This document shows, piece by piece, positions 2,957 through 7,345 of a stretch of DNA of 35,079 nt. Below the pieces are notes generated by a model. It ran no database searches and was not told the DNA's origin. It was given only the letters and a program-made list of their open reading frames with translations. The first letter of the stretch is position 1; every line of letters starts with the position of its first letter. A program made the position numbers and the translations under genes. The DNA comes from Deltaproteobacteria bacterium (GTDB taxonomy: Bacteria; Desulfobacterota; Binatia; UBA1149; JAJCZL01), in NCBI GenBank assembly GCA_029262415.1, contig JAJCZL010000051.1, forward strand, positions 1-35,079, given 5' to 3'.

Positions 2957-3063
2957 CCTCCCCCAGTTACTGGCCGCGACGCCGCCTCTGGAATCATTCA
3001 TCAACCCATAAGTTGGCGAACGCGAACTCGCGGTCAGTATTCACTTGCGTGGTGCGTAAATGA
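2953..3063 (+). CDS. 36-residue basic microprotein, translationally coupled
   Basis: A short frame beginning MTSPSYWPRRRLWNH and ending CVVRK. It starts in an ATGA overlap with the upstream stop (2953-2956) and ends in another ATGA overlap with the start of the C5-methyltransferase (3060-3063). It fills an otherwise empty 103-nt gap, which is strong positional evidence in an operon where nearly every junction is of this type. The peptide is basic and aromatic-rich. It may act mainly to couple translation into the methyltransferase. Confidence 0.5.
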   Translation: MTSPSYWPRRRLWNHSSTHKLANANSRSVFTCVVRK

Positions 3064-4010
3064 GAGTGCTTGATCTGTTTTCCGGCATTGGCGGCTTTTC
3101 TTTGGGCTTGGAGCGGGCCGGGATGGAAACGATTGCCTTCTGTGAAATAGACCCATTCTGCCAGGCCGTATTGAGAAAACACTGGCCGGAAGTTCCTATT
3201 CACGACGACGTGCGAGAGCTTGATGGAAAAAAATTCAACCCTGACATTATTTGCGGAGGATATCCTTGCCAGCCATTCAGTCTGGCCGGGGACAGACGAG
3301 GCTCGGAGGATGAGCGTCACCTCTGGCCTGAAATGTTCCGTCTTGTCAAAGAGTGTCGGCCCGCTTGGGTTGTTGGTGAAAATGTTGCTGGGCACATCAC
3401 GATGGGGCTCGACGAAGTGCTTTCTGACTTGGAAAGCGAAGGCTACTCCGTACAAACGTTTATTGTTCCAGCTTGTGCCGTCGATGCCCACCATCGACGA
3501 GACCGGCTCTGGATTGTGGCCAACGCCGACAGTGGGCGGGGGCGGTCAGACGTTGCCGGAAGGGACAACGCCAACAGGGCAAACCCCAGACGGCCGCAAG
3601 CAAACGGTTTGCTTGGAGAGATACGCGATGAATGTGCATCGCGGGTTGTGGCCGACACCAATACAGAGCGATGCGGAAAAGCGCGGCGTTCCGAAAGTGG
3701 GTGCCGGCCTCGCGGGTGCAGTTCATCTGTTTCCTACTCCGACGAAAGCAATGCACAAGGGATCGTCCGCCGGCGCTATGACCCGAAAAACGGGCAAGTC
3801 GCGGCTGAAAGATCGTCTCGATTATGCGACGGAGCAAGGGCAAATTCAGAATGGGCGCCTGAACCCATGGTGGGTCGAGTGGCTCATGGGGTTTCCCGCA
3901 GGGTGGACCGACTTAAGTCCCTCGGAAATGCCGTTGTCCCGCAAGTCGTCGAAGAAATCGGCAGAGCAATAATGCAAGTCAGTTGCGCTCCGGCGCCAGG
4001 GGAGGGGTGA
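3060..4010 (+). CDS. C5-cytosine DNA methyltransferase
   Basis: 316 residues. Motif I is DLFSGIGGFSLGLERAG (residues 5-21), motif IV GGYPCQPFS with catalytic Cys70, motif VI ENV (107-109), motif VIII RRDRLWIVAN (146-155) and motifs IX/X in RVDRLKSLGNAVVPQVVEEI near residues 280-300. All catalytic elements are present, so it should methylate cytosine C5 using S-adenosylmethionine. The region between motifs VIII and IX (about 155-265) is the target-recognition part and reads VADTNTERCGKARRS, as in phage-borne relatives. The start overlaps the upstream 36-residue gene and the stop overlaps the DUF1376 gene. A second frame inside it (3223-3972) also carries family-like motifs. No cognate nuclease is nearby, so it is probably a solitary anti-restriction enzyme. 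Confidence 0.9.
   Translation: MRVLDLFSGIGGFSLGLERAGMETIAFCEIDPFCQAVLRKHWPEVPIHDDVRELDGKKFNPDIICGGYPCQPFSLAGDRRGSEDERHLWPEMFRLVKECRPAWVVGENVAGHITMGLDEVLSDLESEGYSVQTFIVPACAVDAHHRRDRLWIVANADSGRGRSDVAGRDNANRANPRRPQANGLLGEIRDECASRVVADTNTERCGKARRSESGCRPRGCSSSVSYSDESNAQGIVRRRYDPKNGQVAAERSSRLCDGARANSEWAPEPMVGRVAHGVSRRVDRLKSLGNAVVPQVVEEIGRAIMQVSCAPAPGEG
3223..3972 (+). CDS. Possible second protein in the +1 frame of the methyltransferase gene
   Basis: An open frame of 249 residues lies entirely inside the C5-methyltransferase gene. It is not featureless: it has GLWPTPT, GLWPTPI and LFPTPT repeats and ends with LNPWWVEWLMGFPAGWTD followed by a Ser/Lys-rich tail. From memory, WPTP repeats and a WVEWLMGFP block are recurrent in phage proteins annotated as DNA methylases or hypothetical proteins. 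The block overlays VGRVAHGVS of the main frame. A GAGAG lies 5 nt upstream of the ATG and a run of seven A follows it. It could be a true overlapping gene, the product of a frameshift, or an artefact of conserved DNA. Translation is unproven. Confidence 0.35.
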   Translation: MEKNSTLTLFAEDILASHSVWPGTDEARRMSVTSGLKCSVLSKSVGPLGLLVKMLLGTSRWGSTKCFLTWKAKATPYKRLLFQLVPSMPTIDETGSGLWPTPTVGGGGQTLPEGTTPTGQTPDGRKQTVCLERYAMNVHRGLWPTPIQSDAEKRGVPKVGAGLAGAVHLFPTPTKAMHKGSSAGAMTRKTGKSRLKDRLDYATEQGQIQNGRLNPWWVEWLMGFPAGWTDLSPSEMPLSRKSSKKSAEQ

Positions 4011-4930
4011 TGGCTGACGCCCGCCAATGGATGCCGCTTCACATCGGCAGTTATCTCAAAAACACGCAACGGCTCACGACTGAGCAGCACGGGGCATACT
4101 TGCTGTTGATAATGGATTATTGGAACGCCCAAGAACCGCTTCCTGATGACGACGACGCATTAGCCGCTATTACGCGCATGAGCGTCGAGGGCTGGAAAAA
4201 GGCGCGCCCTGCTATTGAGAGGTTCTTCAAAGTTTCCGCCTCTCAGTGGCGCCATGAGCGCATAGAGGCCGAAATGAAGGCCGCCAAGAAAAACGTGGCC
4301 GACAAGGCGGACAGGATGCGCCGCGCACGCGAAGCAAAAAAGGCGAAGGCAAACTCTATAACAGCGTCTATAAAAGGCTCTATCATAGGGCCTGTCATAG
4401 ACCTTGCCACAGGCTCTATTATAGAGCCTGAAACAGGCCCTATTACAGGCTCTTCCACAGCTCTACCTCTACCTTCACCTTTACCTAACCTAAAGGTTAC
4501 CAAGAACCCAAGTAAGAGCGCGTCTGACGACGCGGTTTTGTTTGATGCTTTTTGGTTGAGTTACCCACATCCAAACAATCGCGGATCGAAGGCCAAGGCT
4601 CGTGAAAGATTTTTCAAGCTTTCCAAGCCAGATCGCGCCGCTGTTTTCGAAAGCCTCGGACCCTACGCCGATTATTGCGACGCGGCGAAGGATTGGTATT
4701 CACCGAAAATGGCCGAAGGATATTTAAACCCCGCCAAGAAAATTTGGGAGAACACGCCAGATGCGAAATCAGAACGCGCTCGCCAAGACCGACGTAACGG
4801 TGACACCGCCCGAAAGGTGGACAGCCTACGGGACTTGCACAATCAGGCGAAGGACTTTGATCGAGCAGGGACAGGGCCGGTATTTGATCGCGACGGGGAG
4901 CCGCCAAGACGCGCAATCGGCGCTAAATGA
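4010..4930 (+). CDS. DUF1376 (YdaU-like) phage replication protein
   Basis: 306 residues from the ATG at 4010, which overlaps the methyltransferase stop and has GGGGAGGGG just upstream. Residues 1-95 are a clear DUF1376 domain (WMPLHIGSYLKNTQRLTTEQ, then HGAYLLLIMDYWNAQEPLP). A basic stretch follows (about 90-115), then a low-complexity linker with GSII/GPVI/GPIT repeats (about 120-155). The C-terminal part (FDAFWLSYPHPNNRGSKAKA) resembles the C-terminal segment found in phage O-like initiators. DUF1376 proteins occur in the replication slot of temperate phages. The repeated linker DNA could hold the origin, as in lambda O, which is an inference. Confidence 0.75.
   Translation: MADARQWMPLHIGSYLKNTQRLTTEQHGAYLLLIMDYWNAQEPLPDDDDALAAITRMSVEGWKKARPAIERFFKVSASQWRHERIEAEMKAAKKNVADKADRMRRAREAKKAKANSITASIKGSIIGPVIDLATGSIIEPETGPITGSSTALPLPSPLPNLKVTKNPSKSASDDAVLFDAFWLSYPHPNNRGSKAKARERFFKLSKPDRAAVFESLGPYADYCDAAKDWYSPKMAEGYLNPAKKIWENTPDAKSERARQDRRNGDTARKVDSLRDLHNQAKDFDRAGTGPVFDRDGEPPRRAIGAK
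4352..4490. repeat. Iteron-like repeats inside the replication gene (candidate origin)
   Basis: The linker-coding stretch holds several imperfect direct and inverted copies of GGCTCTAT / ATAGAGCC and the related GGGCCTG/CAGGCCC, including a near-palindrome centred at about 4420. Next to it (about 4460-4488) is a pyrimidine-rich run of hexamers CTACCT-CTACCT-TCACCT-TTACCT. Phage origins often lie in the initiator gene between its two domains. No DnaA box was identified. Confidence 0.35.
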
Positions 4931-6449: not shown

Positions 6450-6881
6450 TTAGCCTTCCGGCCATCCGAAGATGTTCATCAAATATAACATTTTTGATGC
6501 GGGCGCCGAGGGCTCATAATAATCGTCAGGCGATTGCCAGCGATGGATAGTTGATTTATCGACGCCTAGAATTTCGGCCAGCGCATGCACCGGCGCGTCG
6601 CCTCGCGCTTGTGTAAATTCGGCCGGCGAATATTTCACATATGCAGTAATGTCCGGGCTCTGCATATCGACCTCGTAATCGTCGATATAGTCCAGCAATG
6701 CATTGATCGATGGATTGACTTTACGCACGCTGTTTGATGACGGATGCGCGAGATATTTGCGAACCGTCGGCGGGCTGACGCAGATTATTTCTGCGACAGC
6801 TTTGTTGCTGAGCGAGTAACGGCGCATAAATGATTTCAATATTTGTGGCCGATTAGCCTCCATATCATGGACCTGGCTCAT
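6450..6881 (-). CDS. Double helix-turn-helix protein
   Basis: 143 residues. Two HTH-like segments are visible: SLSNKAVAEIICVSPPTVRK at about residues 23-42 and PVHALAEILGVDKSTIHRWQ at about 96-115. It is presumably a DNA-binding regulator, not a match to a named family that I can identify. The start ATG overlaps the stop of the upstream hexapeptide-repeat gene (ATGA), so the two are co-transcribed leftward from the promoter at 7392-7420. It lies between the early and late operons on the opposite strand, a typical place for genes expressed in the lysogen. Confidence 0.6.
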   Translation of the reverse strand: MSQVHDMEANRPQILKSFMRRYSLSNKAVAEIICVSPPTVRKYLAHPSSNSVRKVNPSINALLDYIDDYEVDMQSPDITAYVKYSPAEFTQARGDAPVHALAEILGVDKSTIHRWQSPDDYYEPSAPASKMLYLMNIFGWPEG

Positions 6882-7345
6882 TCGTCCGCAACCTCCTCTG
6901 GCTCATCCGCAAAAATAAGCTGACCATCCTCATCAATGCCTTGCAGGGGGTACGCCTCAGTCTCGGGCGGCCATCGATGTGCCATCGCATATGCGCCCTG
7001 TACGCCTTCTGCGAGCCAATGACCTGAGGGGTCGCTGGGATCGAGCAAGTTGTAGGTCTGAGTAACGTCCAAAATTTTAAATGAGTGTGTCGTTTTGTCC
7101 TCAGTCTCATCTACTGCGTCGATCCTGACACCTTCGCCGATCTCGGCATCTTTACGGATGATGACATCTTCGCCGATCTCGGCATTTGCGTCGATCCTGG
7201 CGCGGCGGTGGACAATGGCATCTTTGTGGATAATGACACCTTCACCGATGATGACACCTTCACCGATGCTGGCACCTTTGCCGACCCAAATTTCTACAAT
7301 TTCGCCATTTGGATTAGTATGTTTGATTTTTTTCATGTCAGTCAT
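6878..7345 (-). CDS. Left-handed beta-helix (hexapeptide-repeat) protein
   Basis: 155 residues from the ATG at 7345 with AAGGAA upstream; an in-frame ATG at 7336 is also possible. Residues about 20-80 are a run of hexapeptide repeats (VGKGASIGEGVIIGEGVII and on to DANAEIGEDVIIRKDAEIGE), predicted to form four or five turns of a left-handed beta-helix as in hexapeptide acyltransferases. The remaining half, including GHWLAEGVQGAYAMA, shows no catalytic motif known to me, so acyltransferase activity is uncertain. The repeat is visible in DNA as an 18-bp periodicity. First gene of the leftward two-gene unit. Confidence 0.65.
   Translation of the reverse strand: MTDMKKIKHTNPNGEIVEIWVGKGASIGEGVIIGEGVIIHKDAIVHRRARIDANAEIGEDVIIRKDAEIGEGVRIDAVDETEDKTTHSFKILDVTQTYNLLDPSDPSGHWLAEGVQGAYAMAHRWPPETEAYPLQGIDEDGQLIFADEPEEVADE

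Follow-up and report, generated by a model that had tools for sequence, protein, structure and literature searches.

Can one stretch of phage DNA encode both parts of a cytosine methyltransferase, one gene lying inside the other? The question is raised by a contig assigned to a Deltaproteobacteria bacterium (GenBank assembly GCA_029262415.1, contig JAJCZL010000051.1), whose analyzed stretch of 35,079 nucleotides we refer to as the window. An open reading frame (ORF) on the forward strand at 3060-4010 encodes a 316-residue DNA cytosine-C5 methyltransferase chain, here called alpha. The +1 frame of the same DNA is free of stop codons from 3175 to 3969 (265 codons) and contains a protein of 249 residues, here called beta, which runs from an ATG at 3223 to the stop codon at 3970-3972. 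A first reading of this DNA (hereafter the original prediction) had described about 250 open +1 codons, three WPTP/FPTP motifs, and a GAGAG and a run of seven A on either side of the +1 ATG, all of which are confirmed along with its coordinates, and had proposed either a dual-coding gene or a frameshifted product. The overlap of the two frames is real and selected. From comparison of homologous sequences, we consider it probable (about 0.88) that the locus encodes a two-chain orphan phage DNA cytosine-C5 methyltransferase, composed of alpha and the nested beta in a manner similar to M.EcoHK31I, and not a frameshift product.

Catalytic motifs in two reading frames

Alpha contains motifs I, IV (PCQ), VI (ENV), VIII and X of the PF00145 family. 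Its profile matches the single-chain enzyme M.HhaI with an E-value of 9.8e-39, a match confined to about HhaI residues 12-182, and its AlphaFold2 model was matched to M.HhaI by Foldseek over 162 columns (E 3.7e-15). Within the model, 13 of the 16 ten-residue blocks of residues 1-160 have a predicted local distance difference test score (pLDDT) above 85, residues 162-276 mostly fall below 50, and the C-terminus is again well modeled (pLDDT 65 for residues 281-290 and 94-95 for residues 291-310). Alpha is therefore modeled as largely disordered between motifs VIII and X. The large domain of M.HhaI aligns with alpha, but M.HhaI carries its target-recognition domain (TRD) and motif IX on the same chain and alpha does not. 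For the window, a profile comparison of the motif region and the classification of loci by frame both place motif IX in the +1 frame, and for this reason alpha alone is not classed as a complete C5-methyltransferase. The original prediction, which had assigned a full set of motifs I to X to the main frame, was wrong on this point.

The C-terminus of beta aligned by hhalign with the motif IX region of single-frame C5-methyltransferases at a probability of 95.2 (E 2.6e-8), while the reversed control gave a probability of 0.1. In this alignment LNPxWVEWLMGFPxGWTD of beta stands opposite LTPxECERLMGFPDxxT of the single-frame enzymes, and by profile comparison the LNP..VEWLMGFP..W peptide of beta is motif IX. 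A hidden Markov model (HMM) search with the +1 protein, as suggested in the original prediction, returned phrog_1008 ("DNA methyltransferase") from PHROG at 6.5e-41; against PDB sequences the best E-value of the beta profile was 0.21, which is not meaningful. The absence of motif IX from alpha makes the +1 product the probable second subunit of one and the same enzyme. Upstream of motif IX, the beta model shows a helix-helix-hairpin N-terminal domain at residues 25-87, and the segment between motifs VIII and IX varies among 230 loci, with a length of 41 to 277 residues and from 0 to 5 [WFL][PA]TP motifs at a median spacing of 37 residues. This segment is less than 35% identical in 41 of 201 pairs (which share members) whose alpha N-terminal parts are at least 85% identical, as would be expected of a swappable recognition region. 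We infer that the WPTP-module region of beta is the target-recognition region.

The same division was found throughout the homologues. A tblastn search with beta matched 200 phage records. Among plasmids, beta is present in only 8 records. Viral and genome scans for loci took the best 80 per query, and the first-stage loci obtained with beta queries comprised 28 + 80 viral loci and 80 bacterial contig loci of many phyla, among the matches listed and partly redundant. In all 206 first-stage records, which include the window and some duplicates, the beta match is offset by +1 from the closest alpha N-terminal part. Motif IX lies at +1 to that part in 201 of them, in frame 0 in one and at +2 in two, and was not found in two truncated records; classification was by HMMs, an earlier regular expression having left 85 of the 206 unclassified. 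In the frame-0 and +2 cases (L081, L040 and L191) motif IX is still at +1 relative to motif X, so it is alpha itself that shifts frame there. Queries with alpha only were used to avoid bias towards beta. With the alpha N-terminal part of the window, and likewise with a distant alpha from phage K1G, motif IX was at +1 in 80 of 80 loci (in each case the best 80 of 598 relatives), while a third alpha query yielded 24 loci with motif IX at +1 in 7, in the alpha frame in 14 and not found in 3.

For the selection tests, 277 sequences were aligned, from which partial alpha N-terminal regions and identical sequences were excluded; of the 245 non-redundant sequences, 232 are dual-frame and 7 single-frame. 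In 227 of the 232, the beta frame stays open across the whole span from upstream of motif IV (alpha profile position 70 or lower) to motif IX, and alpha is open from its N-terminal part to motif X in every one. Among 148 genomes of the host's class, the alpha/beta locus was found in one, namely the genome of the window itself, and consequently no close relatives of the window gene enter the tests. With the closest full-length beta homologue only about 50% identical, the tests describe the family and not this copy. A second, divergent alpha/beta pair is present in the same genome (G000:C83:66143-66898, minus strand, loci L038 and L039), and its beta is again at +1.

Constraint passes between the frames

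At fourfold codons of alpha, third-base identity rises from 0.278 (52,262/187,843) before the overlap to 0.506 (214,596/423,843) within it, against base-composition expectations of 0.25 and 0.26; these values are for all pairs with 45-60% alpha identity, which are not independent. Per-codon entropy correspondingly falls from 1.88 bits (13 codons) upstream to 1.32 bits (25 codons) in the overlap (Mann-Whitney p 4e-5). A single-frame control set was also elevated (0.283 vs 0.346 in pairs of 45-60% identity), seemingly undercutting the test. Splitting that set showed the elevation to be due to a different nested +1 ORF, here called gamma, with the pattern KYxLSxKAxxGILRRAxRRGKxLP, which occurs in methyltransferases matching phrog_116. 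A gamma match is present in 24 of the 44 non-redundant control sequences, and the regular expression for it misses some gamma-like frames (e.g. L296). In the gamma-bearing set (24 sequences; 62 pairs, 45-60% identity), third-base identity of alpha stays close to the chance level ahead of gamma (0.274 and 0.258) and climbs to 0.471 and 0.582 within it.

Substitutions were also sorted by their effect in both frames, using independent pairs and bootstrapping. Upstream of the overlap (88 pairs), alpha has an omega of 0.17/0.13 and the +1 frame is near neutral, slightly below 1, at 0.90 (0.82-0.99)/0.72 (0.62-0.87). Over motifs IV-VIII (88 pairs) the values are 0.25/0.21 for alpha and 0.52 (0.48-0.56)/0.44 (0.38-0.52) for beta, and alpha-silent changes that create a +1 stop occur at a relative rate of 0.27, vs 0.79 upstream. 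Both frames are under purifying selection in this stretch. Between motifs VIII and IX (32 pairs, 3103 codons) omega is 0.34 (0.30-0.39)/0.32 (0.24-0.45) for beta and 1.25 (1.15-1.36)/1.18 (0.92-1.57) for alpha, in pairs picked by beta identity above 55% and absence of a beta stop, a choice favoring beta. In 13 equal-length pairs picked by nucleotide identity only (1247 codons), beta is at 0.24 (0.15-0.35)/0.23 and alpha at 1.11 (0.83-1.49)/1.06. Motif IX follows beta (76 pairs; beta 0.31/0.19, alpha 1.06/0.66), and at motif X alpha is again constrained (60 pairs; 0.14/0.32). The ratios for stop-making changes between VIII and IX (0.29 for alpha) are distorted by multiply changed codons and were not used as evidence, so the statement that alpha is kept open rests on the count of 232 of 232. 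Over the stretch in which a normal enzyme would have its recognition domain, alpha acts as no more than a passive tether free of stops, and the constrained frame is beta.

Could the +1 frame nevertheless be a shadow, held open by base composition and similar among homologues only because alpha is conserved? Long +1 runs are no great rarity by chance: a run of at least 265 codons arose in 148 of 20,000 codon permutations of the alpha gene and in 230 of 20,000 codon-usage resamplings, and the length of the +1 ORF by itself is only mildly unusual. We regard the overlap as more than chance because it is conserved in homologues, not because of its length. Against a shadow frame, both third-base identity and entropy indicate that the synonymous sites of alpha are conserved only within the overlap. 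At profile positions 61-95, outside the span of gamma, identity is already 0.436 in beta-bearing sequences vs 0.258 in gamma-bearing ones, where nothing overlaps that stretch, and between motifs VIII and IX the shadow-like frame is alpha. We find this explanation hardly credible; the tests count it out unless all of them carry a bias that escaped notice. The dual-coding gene of the original prediction is borne out by the open +1 frame, by the conservation of synonymous sites that it had proposed to measure and by beta omega values below 1; the outcomes that it had named as contrary, +1 stops scattered through homologues and neutral +1 substitutions, were not what the homologues showed.

One polypeptide or two

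In 136 of 232 loci the first start codon that the beta frame offers is at profile positions 55-61 of alpha, and a beta-frame start codon lies within positions 44-66 in 220 of 231. Shine-Dalgarno matches of at least 5 nt precede 23% of 392 beta-frame ATGs in this start region, vs 4.9% of 720 elsewhere and 7-8% in other frames. The position of the start, this enrichment and the selection on beta upstream of motif VIII together point to separate initiation of beta.

The alternative is that a single polypeptide is made through two programmed frameshifts, into +1 near motif VIII and back after motif IX, which would place motifs I-VIII, the TRD, motif IX and motif X on one chain. A main frame unused between VIII and IX would be expected to be neutral there, as alpha is; motif IX (3859-3912) adjoins motif X (3912-3944); and homopolymers of at least 6 are somewhat commoner near the beta start (27 of 220 loci, 12%) than in 392 control windows (6.6%). 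In locus L094 (alpha N-terminal part 2301-2784, motif IX at 3289, motif X at 3463) motifs IX and X even share a frame, both at +1 to the alpha N-terminal part, which may be read as an in-gene frame change, an assembly error or a reverted single-chain C-terminus. Such a model does not call for the beta frame to be open or under selection well before motif VIII, yet it is both over motifs IV-VIII, and alpha is open up to motif X in all 232 loci, so the main frame is apparently translated across the segment that the model would skip. The seven-A run at 3227-3233, just after the beta ATG, is not a conserved feature: 193 of the 220 beta start regions have no homopolymer of at least 6, and a search of these regions for such homopolymers found no conserved slippery run at the frame change. 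With beta having a start region of its own, the frameshifted product of the original prediction is unsupported, and we judge the double frameshift very unlikely.

Beta might otherwise be a separate phage protein (e.g. a regulator or replication factor), with alpha working alone or inactive. A clamp-binding-like motif enriched at beta N-termini, described below, suggests a job beyond completing an enzyme, and gamma exemplifies another kind of nested +1 gene, one found in methyltransferases already complete on their own. Against this stand the presence in beta of the very motif IX that alpha is missing, and the passage of constraint from alpha to beta between motifs VIII and IX and back to alpha at motif X. 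We therefore hold a separate function of this kind to be unlikely.

Apart from the only mildly unusual length of the +1 ORF and the arrangement in L094, several observations weigh against a two-chain enzyme. Beta had no match in family searches of Pfam and NCBIfam, its AlphaFold2 model is poor (pLDDT 61.8, predicted template-modeling score 0.27), and a structure look-up with that model gave no convincing fold match (best Z 2.7), so what speaks for a recognition domain is its position, the pattern of selection and the presence of motif IX. Five of the 232 homologues have a stop or a late start in the beta frame. Between motifs VIII and IX, alpha-silent changes that create a beta stop are no rarer than the remaining alpha-silent changes (1.27, 0.81-1.72, at few sites), a ratio among those set aside above. 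The Shine-Dalgarno-like sequence of the window's own beta (GAGAG) is weak, and when matches of at least 4 nt are counted the contrast is gone (35% in the start region vs 46% elsewhere). The putative recognition region also lies on the other chain than the one predicted for M.EcoHK31I, as set out in the next section.

If the locus encodes a two-chain enzyme, alpha would be translated from 3060 and would fold as the catalytic domain, with the S-adenosylmethionine site, the PCQ nucleophile, motifs I-VIII and, near the C-terminus, motif X; between VIII and X it would be only a stop-free and largely disordered tether. Beta would be started at its own ATG near 3223, by separate translation from one message, and would supply the WPTP-module target-recognition region and motif IX, along with an N-terminal domain whose coding sequence overlaps alpha motifs IV-VIII. 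The two chains are predicted to assemble as a heterodimer that forms the complete enzyme. Given the phage setting and what is generally known of orphan phage methyltransferases, this enzyme may mark phage DNA against host restriction.

The genes downstream of alpha/beta encode a terminase large subunit, a portal protein, and head-closure and DNA-transfer proteins, and from this gene content the window appears to be phage DNA within a bacterial assembly. No restriction enzyme was seen among the three neighboring ORFs scanned. A gene for an MT-A70 type adenine methyltransferase lies shortly upstream at 2082-2708 (PF05063, 1.5e-23), so the phage has two kinds of methyltransferase. At 4008-4012 (TGATG) the TGA of alpha overlaps an ATG that is in frame with the following gene, which encodes a DUF1376 protein and extends to 4930; the overlap suggests translational coupling. 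Other features of the window are a hexapeptide-repeat-like protein at 6878-7345 on the minus strand (sequence IGEGVIIGEGVIIHKDAIV...), short repeats of PVRLRPPPTVRPSGSDVSPVQ-like units at 16-222, and a short repeat GSIIGPVIDLATGSIIEPETGPITGS at about 4380-4500 within the DUF1376 gene. Features of alpha, beta and gamma are located in Table 1.

Table 1. Positions of alpha and beta features in the window, with examples of gamma in other loci
Feature	Position	Strand	Evidence
Alpha chain, C5-methyltransferase catalytic subunit (motifs I-VIII, X)	3060..4010	+	PF00145 9.8e-48; phrog_363 1.7e-87
Alpha motif I, DLFSGIGG	3072..3095	+	L6, G9, G11 and G12 invariant in alignment A4
Weak Shine-Dalgarno-like GAGAG, 4 nt before the beta ATG	3214..3218	+	sequence
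Beta chain: N-terminal domain, predicted recognition region, motif IX; 249 aa	3223..3972	+	phrog_1008 6.5e-41; tblastn; selection tests
Beta TLTLF, where many homologues have QLxLF	3238..3252	+	sequence; motif enrichment in homologues
Alpha motif IV, PCQ with catalytic cysteine, in DNA shared with beta	3264..3272	+	P69 and C70 invariant and Q71 almost invariant in A4
Alpha motif VI, ENV, also read in beta	3378..3386	+	E107 and N108 invariant in A4
Beta N-domain hairpin, residues 67-87, best-modeled part	3421..3483	+	pLDDT 95 (71-80) and 85 (81-90)
Alpha motif VIII, HRRDR, also read in beta	3492..3506	+	R147 and R149 invariant in A4
Beta WPTP module 1, just past alpha motif VIII	3517..3528	+	sequence
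Alpha residues 162-276, open but unconserved linker, read-through of the beta recognition region	3543..3887	+	selection, openness, pLDDT
Beta WPTP module 2	3649..3660	+	sequence
Beta FPTP module 3	3730..3741	+	sequence
Motif IX in the beta frame, LNPWWVEWLMGFPAGWTD	3859..3912	+	hhalign; beta omega 0.31/0.19 over 17 codons, 76 pairs
Alpha motif X, LKSLGNAVVPQ	3912..3944	+	G289 and N290 invariant; omega 0.14/0.32 in homologues
Gamma examples	L304:2302-2676; L409:2245-2685; L426:2305-2652; phage P1 dmt L470:2306-2800		

Known relatives, nested genes and a clamp-like motif

The recognition site of the characterized enzyme M.EcoHK31I is reportedly YGGCCR. Its small chain is also said to be encoded inside the large-chain gene in another frame; such a nested gene is present here. 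The alpha and beta genes, by contrast, lie among phage genes, and they are likened to this enzyme by description. According to an excerpt of PMC3404938, which cites Lee et al. 1995, motifs I-VIII and X and the predicted TRD of M.EcoHK31I are on the large chain and only motif IX is on the small one. The distribution of motifs is thus the same, with I-VIII and X on alpha and IX on beta, but selection places the recognition region here on beta. By analogy, alpha/beta may be called a variant working like M.EcoHK31I. The same excerpt describes M.AquI as a C5-methyltransferase split into two gene products with motifs IX and X together; in the present locus motif X remains on alpha, apart from IX, and one gene lies within the other.

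In PHROG 1008 and in phage records, the homologues of beta are labeled only as hypothetical proteins or as a second methyltransferase. They are annotated as ORFs overlapping the methyltransferase in Paenibacillus phages Shelly (gp56, "g55 internal gene") and Jacopo (gp57), as the "Mte8-like" ORF30 inside the "C-specific methylase" of Escherichia phage K1G, and as a second DNA methyltransferase in Xanthomonas phage PhiXhv-18. When 60 of 214 phage records were sampled evenly, 42 had one annotated feature under the beta match, 16 had two and 2 had no annotation; in the best 60 records, which are mostly from Paenibacillus phages, two features were found in 31. In published work, a Paenibacillus phage with two DNA-cytosine methyltransferase genes is tabulated (PMC6070908) and an Mte8-like protein is merely named (PMC5582158). 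A different out-of-frame gene, for an HNH endonuclease with a ShiLan domain, has been described inside a mycobacteriophage methylase (PMC11855218, in excerpt). The two cases are alike in that a second protein is hidden out of frame in a phage methylase gene whose own frame stays open; they differ in that the endonuclease is a mobile insertion, whereas beta is a conserved enzyme part that, by its sequence, holds motif IX. A literature search, with subscription papers outside its reach, found no description of the alpha/beta overlap across phages.

Gamma is likewise widespread, with tblastn matches in 127 phage records that include P1 and P7. In phage P1 it lies at +1 within a run of 165 open codons, in a frame with 21 stops across dmt. 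Those gamma-bearing methyltransferases that were read out have motifs IX and X in frame. Gamma itself had no match in a Pfam search and only weak ones in PHROG (phrog_16143). The methyltransferase of Mycobacterium phage Thibault (L474:308-2109) is split by its annotation into two pieces, separated by a gene for an HNH endonuclease, and the C-terminal part of its gamma is annotated there as a separate hypothetical gene, gp104.

In 79 of 232 loci the N-terminus of beta contains the pattern Q[LMIVSAT]x[LM]F, as QLTLF in 45 of them. The expected count is 1.3 on average from shuffles (maximum 6 in 500 runs) and 3.4 from synonymous-codon resampling of alpha (maximum 10 in 200 runs), and the count in the other two frames is 0; as the pattern had been seen in A1 before it was tested on the larger, overlapping set, and as the loci are related, the count is not a probability. 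The pattern fits the published consensus for binding to the replication sliding clamp (DnaN), QL[S/D]LF, with QLNLF in UmuC and QLGLF in Pol II (PMC3716654, in excerpt), and the PCNA motif of DNMT1 offers a eukaryotic parallel (PMC9690074, in excerpt). Beta of the window has TLTLF, without the Q, so the case for clamp binding is weaker for this copy. Tentatively, and at somewhat less than even odds, we suggest that nested +1 genes have a hot spot in phage C5-methyltransferases: here a swappable specificity subunit with an N-terminal QLxLF would recruit the split enzyme to newly replicated DNA, as for DNMT1 on PCNA, and in another branch, of complete single-chain enzymes and P1 dmt, gamma would be under selection. 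With the enrichment of the motif, it can be tested directly whether modification in phages is coupled to their replication forks.

If alpha and beta form one enzyme, a large number of the genes that phage annotations list as one complete cytosine methyltransferase would encode only half of an enzyme. Anyone who cloned or annotated just the main frame would then obtain a product without its recognition domain, and methylomes would be misassigned. The family would also provide a clean natural case of a long same-strand overlap in which constraint is handed between frames segment by segment, making the evolution of overlapping genes measurable.

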